The notes under the pieces were generated by a model, which worked only from the letters and a program-made list of their open reading frames with translations, did not search any database and was not told the origin of the DNA. Below, piece after piece: positions 3,706-57,870 of a DNA stretch of 64,000 nt (its first letter is position 1; every line of letters begins with the position of its first letter). Source of the DNA: a bacterium (GTDB lineage Bacteria; UBP15; UBA6099); contig JAKQPS010000037.1 of assembly GCA_029564595.1 (NCBI GenBank), positions 1-64,000 on the forward strand, in the 5' to 3' direction. A program made the translations under genes and the position numbers.

Positions 3706-3833
3706 GCCGCCTGCGGCGGCTTGGGGAAAACCCTTTGAAAAGGGTTGTTCCCCAAACCCCTTTCCTAAATCTTTCGTGTCAGCGCCGATGTCGGGGGCTG
3801 CGCCTCCGGCTTTGGCGCGTGTTATGGGAAAAG
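3706..3833 (+). repeat. Two-hairpin repeat, copy A
   Basis: The unit begins with a GCCGCCTGCGGCGG mini-hairpin. A long stem follows at 3721-3756 (TTGGGGAAAACCCTTT, GA, then AAAGGGTTGTTCCCCAA), then a CCCCTTTCCTAAATC spacer. A second stem at 3782-3818 starts GCGCCGATGTCGG and ends CCGGCTTTGGCGC, and the tail is GGGAAAAGATA. It lies just beyond the 3' end of the YhcC-like gene. Relatives are at 4971, 16423, 24047 (reverse), 51426 (reverse) and, structurally, 23840. Confidence 0.85.
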
Positions 3834-4970: not shown

Positions 4971-5100
4971 GCCGCCTGCGGCGGTTGGGGAAAACCCTTT
5001 GAAAAGGGATGTTCCCCAACCGCCTTTCCTAAATTTCTCCTGCTAGCGCCAAAGTCGGGGATGGGCTTCCGACTTTGGCGCGTGTTCATGGGGAAAGATA
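4971..5100 (+). repeat. Two-hairpin repeat, copy B
   Basis: Same layout and orientation as copy A, about 1.27 kb away. There is a CCGCCTGCGGCGG mini-hairpin, a stem at 4985-5019, a spacer CGCCTTTCCTAAATT, then a second stem at 5046-5081 with arms GCGCCAAAGTCGG and CCGACTTTGGCGC (13 perfect pairs). Copy A has G and T changes in the same stem that largely keep pairing. A purine-rich tract (GAGGAAAAAAGAGG) precedes it, as in copy A. It lies 3' of the small membrane protein gene at 5448. Confidence 0.85.
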
Positions 5101-5124: not shown

Positions 5125-5320
5125 AAAATGGGTTCCCGCTTTCGCGGGAATGACGGCGGAGGGAGGGAATGGAATGACGGCAAGAAGGAAAGAGGAATGA
5201 CGGCGGAGAGAAGTAAAGGAATGACGGTAAAAAAGAAAAGAAGAATGAGGGCGCGATGGGTTGAAAATGGGTTCCCGCTTTCGCGGGAATGACGGCAAGA
5301 AAAGAAAAGGAATGACGGCG
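5125..5320 (+). repeat. Tandem array of about 23-bp units with two 33-bp palindromic blocks
   Basis: GGAATGACGG recurs at 5147, 5171, 5194, 5218, 5286 and 5309, mostly 23 or 24 bases apart, separated by purine-rich GCRGAGAGAAGWAAA-like sequence. Two identical blocks (5125-5157 and 5264-5296) carry TTCCCGCTTTCGCGGGAA flanked by AAAATGGG and TGACGGC. The palindromic core matches a TTCCCGCGAAAGCGGGAA sequence widespread in bacterial intergenic regions. No gene is credible between 4860 and 5447. Confidence 0.85.
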
Positions 5321-16402: not shown

Positions 16403-16422
16403 GAATAAATTGAAGAAATGCA

Positions 16423-16536
16423 TTAAGGGAAAACTTTTGAAAAAGTTTTCCCTTAAAATCCCTTTCAAAATCTTTCAATCTAGCGCCGAAGTCGGGGCTG
16501 CGCCTCCGCCTTCGGCGCGTATCATGTGAAAAGATA
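16423..16536 (+). repeat. Two-hairpin repeat, copy C
   Basis: The first stem is TTAAGGGAAAACTTTT, a two-base loop, then the full complement (16423-16456, 16 pairs). The spacer is ATCCCTTTCAAAATCTTTC. The second stem (16483-16518) starts GCGCCGAAGTCGG and ends CCGCCTTCGGCGC, with tail GTGAAAAGATA. Compared with copy A, the CCC/GGG block of the first stem has become CTT/AAG on both arms, so pairing is preserved. It lies between two convergent genes and could act as a bidirectional terminator. The rest of 16537-16664 shows nothing. Confidence 0.85.
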
Positions 16537-23839: not shown

Positions 23840-23939
23840 GCGGGGAAACCATTTTTTGCAAAAATAGGTTTCCCCGCGCCCCTTCCAAAAAAACACCCGG
23901 ACGCCGATTTTGCTGAACTTCGTTCATTGCAAAATCGGC
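23840..23939 (+). repeat. Two-hairpin repeat, structural variant F
   Basis: The first stem is GCGGGGAAACCATTTTT, a GC loop, then AAAAATAGGTTTCCCCGC (23840-23877). The spacer CCCCTTCCAAAAAAACACCCGG follows. The second stem is GCCGATTTTGC with GCAAAATCGGC (23903-23939), with an inner TGAAC-TTC-GTTCA pairing. Layout and spacing match copies A-C, but the stem sequences differ almost completely. It lies in the convergent gap 23770-24163, which holds no gene. Confidence 0.75.
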
Positions 23940-24046
23940 TCTTGTTTGTTTATCGGAAAATCACAGACAAGGTCGGTGGTCGTTTATTTGCAAAAACGCG
24001 TATAGGCTAGCGGGCCTAAACCATACTTTGATAATCACTAAACAAA

Positions 24047-24120
24047 CGTGAAAGATTTGGGAAAGGGGTTTGGGGGACAACCCTTTTCGAAGGGTTTTCC
24101 ACAACCGCCGCAGGCGGCCG
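24047..24120 (-). repeat. Two-hairpin repeat, copy D (first hairpin only)
   Basis: In reverse orientation: CCGCCTGCGGCGG, then TTGTGGAAAACCCTT, CGA, AAGGGTTGTCCCCCAA, then ACCCCTTTCCCAAATCTTTCAC. The second hairpin is not found beyond it. It is just downstream of the HdrD-like gene's stop. Confidence 0.8.
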
Positions 24121-51358: not shown

Positions 51359-51425
51359 GGGCCGCTTTTTCTCCCAACGCCTATAGCGCCACGAATTCTC
51401 AATAGCCGATTTCAATTTAGACCCA

Positions 51426-51500
51426 AGTTTGAAAAGTTTGGGAAAAGGGGCTTTGGGAAAGAACCCTTTCCAAAGGGTTTTTCCCCAACCGCCGAAGGCG
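51426..51500 (-). repeat. Two-hairpin repeat, copy E (first hairpin only)
   Basis: In reverse orientation: CGCCTTCGGCGG, then TTGGGGAAAAACCCTTT, GG, AAAGGGTTCTTTCCCAAA, then GCCCCTTTTCCCAAACTTTTC. Pairing is kept despite changes against copy A. It lies in the convergent gap between genes ending at 51358 and 51546. Confidence 0.8.
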
Positions 51501-56766: not shown

Positions 56767-57690
56767 ATGAAATCAAACACTAAGCGCGTCGAAATCGAAC
56801 GGGGAATTTTTAGCAGCCGCGCGGTTTCGCGGTTTGTGCTGGCGCTTGCGTGCGCGGCGCTTGTCATCTCGGCGGGACGCGCGATGGCGGATTGGCCCGG
56901 CGTCGCAGTGTCAGTGGACGGAACTCCCATCGCTTACGAGATTTGGGGAGAGGGAGAGCCGACTCTGATCTTTATTCACGGATGGAGTTGCGATTCCAGA
57001 TACTGGCGCGCGCAGATAGAGCATTTCTCCCGGAAGCGCCGCGTAATAGTCCTCGATATGGCCGGACACGGAAACTCCGGCATGGCGAGAGAGATTTACA
57101 CCATGAAGGCCTTTGGCGAAGACGTCCGGGCGGTGGCGGACGCCGCGGGCGCGCAGAAGATGATTCTCATAGGCCATTCTATGGGCGGCCCGGTGATAGC
57201 GGAAGCGGCGGCGCTTATGCCGGGGCGCGTGATCGGGCTTGTCGGCGTAGACACGTTTGAAGACGTGGAATACATGTTGACGAACGAGGAAATGGAGCGG
57301 ATGCTCGGCCCGCTGGAGGCGGATTTCAAAGCCGGGGCGCGCGCGTTCGTAACCTCGATGATGCGGCCCGGAGAGGACGCCGCTCTCGCCGAGTGGATTC
57401 TTGCGGACATGTCGTCCGCTCCCCCGGCCGTAGCCATGAGCGCGATCAGGGAAATGCTGAATCAGTATATAACGGGCGAAACCGCCTCCATTTTCGATCG
57501 CGCCCGGATTCCCGTCGTGACGGTTAACGCCGACATGTGGCCGATCAACTTCGAGTCGAACCGCAAACACATGTTGTCGTTCGACGCGATTGTGCTGAAG
57601 GACGCGGACCATTTTCTGATGATGAACAAGCCGGATGAATTCAACGCGGCGCTCGAACGGGCGATAGATATGCTGATGGGCAATCAATAA
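56767..57690 (+). CDS. Exported alpha/beta hydrolase
   Basis: 307 residues from ATG 56767 (MKSNTKRVEIERG). AGGG lies about eight bases upstream; an ATG at 56752 is possible. An N-terminal hydrophobic segment (SRFVLALACAALVISAGRAMA) looks like a signal peptide or anchor. The catalytic fold shows FIHGWSCDSRYW (oxyanion), GHSMGG (Ser138), Asp256 in NADMWP and His282 in DADHFLMMN. All three triad residues are present. The substrate is unknown; periplasmic placement is unusual for a CoA-related hydrolase. Confidence 0.85.
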   Translation: MKSNTKRVEIERGIFSSRAVSRFVLALACAALVISAGRAMADWPGVAVSVDGTPIAYEIWGEGEPTLIFIHGWSCDSRYWRAQIEHFSRKRRVIVLDMAGHGNSGMAREIYTMKAFGEDVRAVADAAGAQKMILIGHSMGGPVIAEAAALMPGRVIGLVGVDTFEDVEYMLTNEEMERMLGPLEADFKAGARAFVTSMMRPGEDAALAEWILADMSSAPPAVAMSAIREMLNQYITGETASIFDRARIPVVTVNADMWPINFESNRKHMLSFDAIVLKDADHFLMMNKPDEFNAALERAIDMLMGNQ

Positions 57691-57870
57691 ACCCGGATTC
57701 GTCGATAGAGCCGACGAATCGGGGCGATTTTCATAGCGGCGAACTGCTTTGTTGCCGCCGCATTTTTTTGTTAATGAACCATAAGTTCTATTCACTGCAA
57801 AAATGCGCTTTGCGCCTCGCATTTCATCCGCTCTGAACAATCGCTCCCGAATCTTAACGACGGATTCGGG
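57691..57870 (+). repeat. CCCGGATTCGTC hairpin repeat, copy 2, and two further hairpins
   Basis: CCCGGATTCGTC with CGACGAATCGGG (57692-57723) and CGATTTTCATAGCGGCGAAC match copy 1 at 8189. Next comes CGCATTTTT with AAAAATGCG (57759-57807), enclosing a TGAAC and GTTC pair like that in repeat F. Then CCCGAATC with GATTCGGG (57846-57870). Three hairpins thus follow one another in the 318-base gap before 58009, and nothing else is recognised there. Confidence 0.75.

Follow-up and report, generated by a model that had tools for sequence, protein, structure and literature searches.

The DNA at 23840-23951 of the window (the 64,000-nucleotide stretch analysed, positions 1 to 64,000 of contig JAKQPS010000037.1) is a copy of a non-coding repeat with two hairpins that is dispersed in the genome and has to date been found in a single genus, and in which the 'spacer' CCCCTTCC-AAAAAAAC 3' of the first hairpin is a near mirror image of that hairpin. 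The 35-copy family to which it belongs is part of a wider structural superfamily, patchily distributed across several phyla. The most economical account is that of a two-part element at the 3' ends of genes, formed by a hairpin, the third strand of which co-evolves with it, and by a terminator-like hairpin. In its specific form, in which the first part would be an intramolecular strand-switching DNA triplex hairpin, this account is predicted from sequence and is assigned a probability of about 0.5.

The element lies between two convergent genes (plus-strand gene end, 23769; minus-strand gene end, 24164), its start 70 bases past the stop of the former and its end 212 bases from the end of the latter. 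Hairpin 1 (23840-23877, plus strand; GCGGGGAAACC-A-TTTTTT ... AAAAATA-GGTTTCCCCGC) is recognized in the sequence and in the RNA fold, and is kept in the alignment of the 35 copies. It is followed on the same strand by the mirror tail CCCC-TT-CC-AAAAAAA-C (23879-23894; CCCCTTCC at 23879-23886, then seven A and a C up to 23894), the run lengths and bases of which track the arm, and by hairpin 2 (23903-23939; GCCGATTTTGC-TGAAC-TTC-GTTCA-TT-GCAAAATCGGC), defined by covarying stem pairs and by the same alignment. The sequence-only reading had placed hairpin 1, CCCCTTCC and hairpin 2 correctly between the convergent genes, and the fold of the approximately 100-base element as RNA agrees with it (-52.3 kcal/mol; z -6.1, with none of 200 shuffles as low; z values of the two strands of the element stretch, -6.1 and -7.3 versus shuffles). 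The T-rich tract 3' of hairpin 2 (23940-23951, plus strand) is a possible terminator tail. The GC-hairpin and T-tract features of hairpin 2 amount to 59% T in the first 8 aligned nucleotides after it in the 35 copies, and a consensus terminator scan placed its two calls elsewhere and made none at hairpin 2. Assignment of the element to a known RNA family was rejected, as none of 4227 Rfam models matched the window above its gathering threshold. The same intergenic region also contains a family-1 hairpin 1 with its tail (24050-24109, minus strand; BLAST identity to copy A, 92%; covariance model E value, 2.9 only). Thus, within 23840-24118 each convergent gene has its own element in its own orientation, from the 35-copy family for the plus-strand gene and a family-1 hairpin for the minus-strand gene.

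When 123 bases were compared by BLAST with the genome of origin (4.4 Mb, 203 contigs, 97% complete), 34 near-full-length places were found at E<1e-11, self included, the other 33 being 73-91% identical to the 23840 element; one further place (69%) brings the aligned family to 35 own-genome copies. A separate repeat family therefore matches the element end to end, an outcome that the sequence-only reading had itself named as refuting its interpretation. A 109-base consensus matched, at E<=1e-6, four of 60 genomes, namely all four of the genus, and none of the 56 beyond it, among which are one genome from the family and two from the order to which the genus belongs. Scanning named genomes for an exact 20-base string returned 60 loci, 36 of which, nearly all full-length, are in three metagenome-assembled genomes (MAGs; bacterium ADurb.Bin236, UBP15 bacterium UBA6099 and USCA_metabat.19) that are taken to be genus-mates. 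In 26 of the 38 MAG copies the long flanks match those of an own copy out of the 35, with 85-97% identity over at least 480 bases; those of nine match none, and three copies match little beyond the element itself, so that the family appears to have been mostly inherited in place, with some turnover. In three copies on UBA6099 contigs (L078, L092 and L119) NN gaps are found in or beside the element along with duplicated pieces, probably reflecting assembly joins at the repeat.

The element had been described as a sixth copy of the two-hairpin elements A-C, a statement that is wrong for the sequence family and right for the architecture. The two-hairpin structure was defined by hand because the consensus that RNAalifold found unaided in the 35-copy alignment was weak. 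With this structure, 92.0% of cells are paired, 31 cells have both sides changed (12.2 in shuffles, with none of 500 as high), and the covariation score is 0.084, as compared to at most 0.042 when the structure is slid. Covariation is mostly found in hairpin 2 (for example, A-U to G-C in seven copies), hairpin 1 hardly varying within the family. A covariance model (R1) built solely from these 35 copies, the E values of which are rough, matches copy A (3717-3831, plus strand, family-1; GGGG-AAAA-CCC stem and CCCC-TTT-CCT tail; E 3e-5), copy B (4981-5094, plus strand, family-1; with a different start of the tail, AACCGCCTTTCC; E 4e-7), copy C (16421-16534, plus strand, family-3; GGG-AAAA-C stem and CCC-TTT-C tail; E 2e-6) and a further family-1 element (51407-51493, minus strand; GGGG-AAAAA-CCC stem and CCCC-TTTT-CCC tail; matched over 51407-51491, E 0.0026), in all four cases over model positions 1-118. 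These full-length matches to A-C (E 4e-7 to 3e-5) confirm the order and spacing that had been noticed by inspection. The own-genome places listed by BLAST for the 23840 element and for copy A are different sets. Thus, the 35-copy family and copies A-C are distinct sequence families by BLAST and one architecture by R1. The claim that the stems share almost no bases with those of A-C holds for hairpin 2 and fails for hairpin 1, which has GGGGAAA(A)CC in common with copies A and B and, in the case of copy C, GGGAAA(A)C, within a G3-4 A3-4 C1-3 core common to all these first stems. The supposed recurrence of the inner TGAAC/GTTCA pairing at 57759-57807 looks like a 5-base coincidence, and recurrence of the element there was rejected: the fold z of 57735-57835 is -1.8, BLAST gives no match, and the nearest R1 match (57677-57764, minus strand) has an E value of 9.2. 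Other repeats were also noted in the window. Beside copy B, at 5130-5300, repeated TTCCCGCTTTCGCGGGAATGACGG and GGAATGACGG strings form a short palindromic repeat, and 624-882 and 2367-2625 are direct copies, 97% identical, of a 259-base stretch.

The own genome contains 85 GGGAAA...TTTCCC hairpins versus four of the reversed pattern. The corresponding values are 67-82 versus 1-6 for the genus-mates, 37 versus 2 for the genome of the same family, and 12 versus 2 and 5 versus 2 for those of the same order; in 19 other genomes counts are mostly near the control, with exceptions (e.g. 33 versus 6 and 21 versus 7). In unrelated genomes R1 matched 36 of 36 element loci at E 5e-4 or better (36 of the 38 such loci were given to it). 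With 16 loci that fit the DNA pattern and had been judged different, the best E value was 0.0044, four more were between 0.03 and 0.2, and 11 gave no match up to E 1. Since the loci had been preselected by hairpin pattern, this result confirms the layout rather than discovering it. INTERMEDIATES and swaps are represented by the orthologue of 51433-51493 in USCA_metabat.19 (L122), which is an element of the 35-copy family; at that site a family-1 hairpin is found in the own genome, together with GAAATCGGCTATTGAG, which resembles the 3' arm of hairpin 2 of the other element and looks like a remnant of it. At two other sites (L093 and L103) hairpin 1 is missing from the own genome, which has only remnants or unrelated sequence there.

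Tail and 5' arm of hairpin 1 are complementary in the parallel sense, and the tail is thus the mirror image of the 3' arm (e.g. TTTCTG with AAAGAC, TTTCTTG with AAAGAAC, and TTTCTTTG with AAAGAAAC). The possibility that it is a Watson-Crick partner of the arm was rejected, its complementarity to the 5' arm being parallel and not antiparallel. Among the own-genome loci collected, 33 elements were read by a parser for which the tail had to contain two C-runs with a T-run of 1-5 between them, and in 32 of these an A-run of n in the stem goes with a T-run of n-1 in the tail (A3/T2 in 16, A4/T3 in ten and A5/T4 in six), with one exception. In family-1 elements with G4-C3 stems, A4 is found with T3 in eight of eight and A5 with T4 in six of six. 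In the window, A4/T3 is seen at 3723, A3/T2 in the 23840 element and A5/T4 at 51486 (minus strand). The search for intermediates proposed in the sequence-only reading has therefore been successful, with A3, A4 and A5 stem families in which the tails change alongside, and with the family swap at the orthologue of 51433-51493. Its conclusion that structure and spacer are maintained is supported for the architecture, kept across families as judged by R1, and falls for the spacer as such, which is a near mirror that follows the stem.

Beyond the genus, the 20-base scan had returned 24 loci, 12 of which have, by eye, the same hairpin and a similar tail, several with a second hairpin (carriers titled Clostridia, Oscillospiraceae, Eubacteriales, Verrucomicrobiota, Desulfarculus and Zipacnadia); in the other 12, three have the hairpin with no A-rich tail and the rest have neither. 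Desulfovibrio may carry such repeats as well. In a tail-selected set (n=39), for which the search required CCCTTCC, the C-run of the stem equals that of the tail in 37 elements. Because of that requirement, a tail-blind set of 66 hairpins from 13 unrelated genomes was collected regardless of the tail. A first parser, which demanded a G at the junction, read 54 of the 66 (49 distinct): the purine tract of the third strand was one shorter than that of the arm in 41 of 49 (permuted mean, 17.5, maximum, 30, in 20000 permutations), and the C-run of the arm equalled the third-strand G-run in 40 of 49 (permuted mean, 19.6, maximum, 33). When the junction G was made optional, 56 of 66 hairpins were parsed (48 distinct) and ten had no parsable third strand; the purine tract was exactly one shorter in 39 of 48 (permuted mean, 17.0, maximum, 31, again in 20000 permutations) and the C-run and G-run were equal in 37 of 48 (permuted mean, 18.1, maximum, 31), all these permutations ignoring kinship among copies within a genome. 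With this lax parser the junction G was absent in two of the 48, in one of them through a long A-run. The two sets pooled, the second having been selected for CCCTTCC, contain 69 distinct elements with an arm T-run: in 49 of 49 in which it has no interior C, the third strand has none either, and when an interior C is present (n=20) the third-strand match is in the same place in 13, elsewhere in three and absent in four. The turn linking hairpin and third strand measures 3 nucleotides in 43 of the 54 elements parsed; on visual inspection, pairing between the start of the linker and the 3' flank is frequent and would make the turn shorter.

On short time scales the coupling appears to be loose. 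Sixteen of 26 ortholog pairs of the 35-copy family could be parsed and six of these differ in run length; compensated changes were looked for and found in none of the six, with homopolymer errors in the MAGs being possible. The hairpin is not a universal motif of the Clostridia (strict pattern in two of 196 genomes) nor of the phylum of the Desulfarculus genome (eight of 247). Matches in two genomes (G232 and G428) were judged different by eye and left out of the coupling counts. Four of the G232 loci (L171, L172, L173 and L175) contain a different small repeat around GGGAAACGGGTTCGTTTCCC, which matches the pattern with another layout. Eleven stretches from viral carriers, none with a mirror tail by eye, were left out as well. 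Within the phylum of the Desulfarculus genome, one genome (G509; e.g. L220-L234) contains 308 GGGAAAC...GTTTCCC hairpins in 2.5 Mb, approximately one per 8 kb, and several of its contigs start near such a hairpin; at two of its loci (L206 and L207) hairpin 2 has GGTTTCCCCCTG...CAGGGGGAAACC, which echoes hairpin 1 in inverted form.

The mirror symmetry has no Watson-Crick meaning and is what a third strand would require, hence the triplex reading. Third-strand switching and the parallel G.G-C variant were included among the triad rules used. The same rules comprise the antiparallel purine motif and the parallel pyrimidine motif, as set out in PMC4666352. On the minus strand, 284 of 369 inner positions of the tail-blind set (41 distinct elements; permuted maximum, 69.9%) and 316 of 351 of the tail-selected set (permuted maximum, 75.8%) fit the rules. 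On the plus strand the fit is 61.0% and 62.7% (permuted maxima, 56.6% and 50.1%), values above the permutations that are to be expected because the coupling, if real, shows whichever strand uses it. A plus-strand triplex was rejected on account of this poorer fit and of its failure at the junction C-run. The usual breach of the mirror is indeed a third-strand G facing a C of the arm (seen at 71 of the 103 arm C positions of the tail-blind set, the first of which was guaranteed by the parser), and at the junction it is allowed by the minus-strand rules and disallowed by the plus-strand ones.

Along the minus strand the third strand comes first, then a turn of about 3 nucleotides and then the hairpin. 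When the minus strand is single-stranded or negatively supercoiled, during replication or in the wake of transcription, it could fold into an intramolecular triple helix. In this fold, the third strand would at first lie antiparallel along the 5'-arm purines (G.G-C and A.A-T), skip one base pair, and cross to the purines of the 3' arm. There it would run parallel, with the G-run read by G.G-C, the A-run by T.A-T and a lone G by C+.G-C. A skipped base at a purine/pyrimidine junction would suit a third strand that crosses the groove. In this alternate-strand reading the code would be a mirror copy in which, at the strand switch, one base is left out and G takes the place of C. Lying beside the terminator-like hairpin 2 at gene 3' ends, such a structure might stall polymerases and close off transcription units, to the possible benefit of the host. 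A broader proposition, to which somewhat less than even odds are given, is that of a cross-phylum class of natural DNA elements selected to fold as triple helices of the alternate-strand type. Third strand and mixed purine/pyrimidine hairpin would co-evolve in it according to a readable code, and repeat families would trade hairpin modules at fixed sites located 3' of genes. A third-strand relation kept across divergent families despite changes in length and bases is covariation evidence of the type used for RNA helices. The mirror code can be searched for in all genomes and provides oligonucleotides for testing; should the triplex fail in vitro, the coupling would need another base-by-base explanation.

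The position of the copies relative to genes bears on the alternatives. With neighbours assigned by a simple codon-usage gene caller, and with three close pairs sharing neighbours, 33 of the 35 own copies have one on either side (convergent in 14, co-directional in one sense in 8 and in the other in 10, divergent in one), and 32 of these 33 lie 3' of at least one gene. For the unrelated carriers a cruder ORF rule gave both neighbours for 39 of 59 elements (16 convergent, 17 co-directional, six divergent), its crudeness being apparent from the 24 of 59 elements that also lie within an ORF of 100 codons. This placement agrees with a function as RNA, in which hairpin 1, tail and hairpin 2 would serve in the 3'-UTR as terminator of the mRNA and protector of its 3' end, the tail pairing or binding as RNA. 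Such a function would also account for the T-rich sequence after hairpin 2 and the covariation of its stem, and for the sense ORF ending 5-28 nucleotides upstream of the hairpin in six of 12 unrelated loci (by the crude ORF rule). However, copies are found in both orientations to genes, ten of the 33 own copies having genes of the opposite strand on both sides, and the tail of a plus-strand RNA violates the triad rules at the junction C-run. Furthermore, according to PMC4666352, purine-motif triplexes do not form in RNA. The RNA explanation is regarded as rather unlikely.

It is unlikely, too, that the element is a selfish or non-autonomous mobile repeat of the MITE or REP type, the shape of which is read by a transposase or recombinase with no gain for the host. 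The high copy number and patchy occurrence over phyla, with the 308 hairpins of a single genome as an example, the sites filled in one species and devoid of hairpin 1 in another, and the swap of families at one site would all be explained in this way. Against it, a PF01797 (Y1 transposase) search, which covered Y1 alone and was positive in five of 14 control genomes, found no match in the own genome at 97% completeness, and 26 of 38 sister-genome copies are at sites orthologous to own copies. No constant target-site duplication is seen by eye in the flanks of the 35 copies, and the compared sites are decayed rather than clean. Finally, tail and arm are both low in complexity, so the mirror relation might be a by-product of simple sequence with similar G/A/C/T run lengths in the two. 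On average, permuted pairs still obey the minus-strand rules at 64-69% of their positions, and the uncompensated run-length changes between orthologs point the same way. Nevertheless, run lengths and the position of the lone interior C track each other per element beyond every permutation tried, and the own-genome sub-families shift in step, which makes this explanation highly improbable. The observation of a two-hairpin element made in the sequence-only reading is thus real and its interpretation partly supported, with the triplex hairpin joined to a terminator-like hairpin as the preferred reading.

Among known systems, REP/BIME sequences, associated with RAYT transposases, are palindromes located between genes, at their 3' ends, and at times closely paired, and are similar to the present element in these respects. 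To our knowledge, a mirror tail is no part of REPs, and a REP/RAYT origin was rejected as the PF01797 search found no Y1 transposase in the own genome. Intrinsic (hairpin and U-tract) terminators resemble hairpin 2, with its T-rich follow-up and frequent placement between convergent genes; they differ in that hairpin 1 has no adjoining T-tract on either strand and that the unit is a repeat family with similar sequences. Mirror repeats that form H-DNA have in common the mirror symmetry around a short centre. Unlike these, the element is not homopurine/homopyrimidine and also contains an inverted repeat, so that one strand alone could fold.

The results of the literature search, for which subscription papers and preprints were mostly outside the scope, led to the BoxC/PIT/TM element of E. 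coli and included no natural alternate-strand repeat. According to Holder et al. 2015 (PMC4666352), this element forms a triplex as a single strand but gives no triplex signal as a duplex or in vivo, the TM element has no terminator activity, and the authors' data do not support a stable triplex of these repeats in cells. TM_ECO is given there as a purine-motif triplex (CCCTCNCCCN3-6GGGNGAGGGN3GGGNGAGGG), and no match to the 35-copy consensus was seen when the two were compared by eye. The similarities are those of a short, dispersed intergenic repeat with two arms and a third segment over a 3-nucleotide turn, one strand of which obeys triplex rules, present in many copies and many genomes. 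The differences are that in BoxC/PIT/TM, as presented there, the whole third segment lies on one purine strand (class I-IV, single motif), whereas here the arms run from G-A to C-T, and that a second hairpin follows in the 35-copy family, the sequences being unrelated. Since arms that mix purine and pyrimidine tracts would force the third strand to switch strands midway, the single-motif feature fails, and the element is a variant, rather than a member, of the BoxC/PIT/TM kind of intrastrand triplex, the nearest one described.
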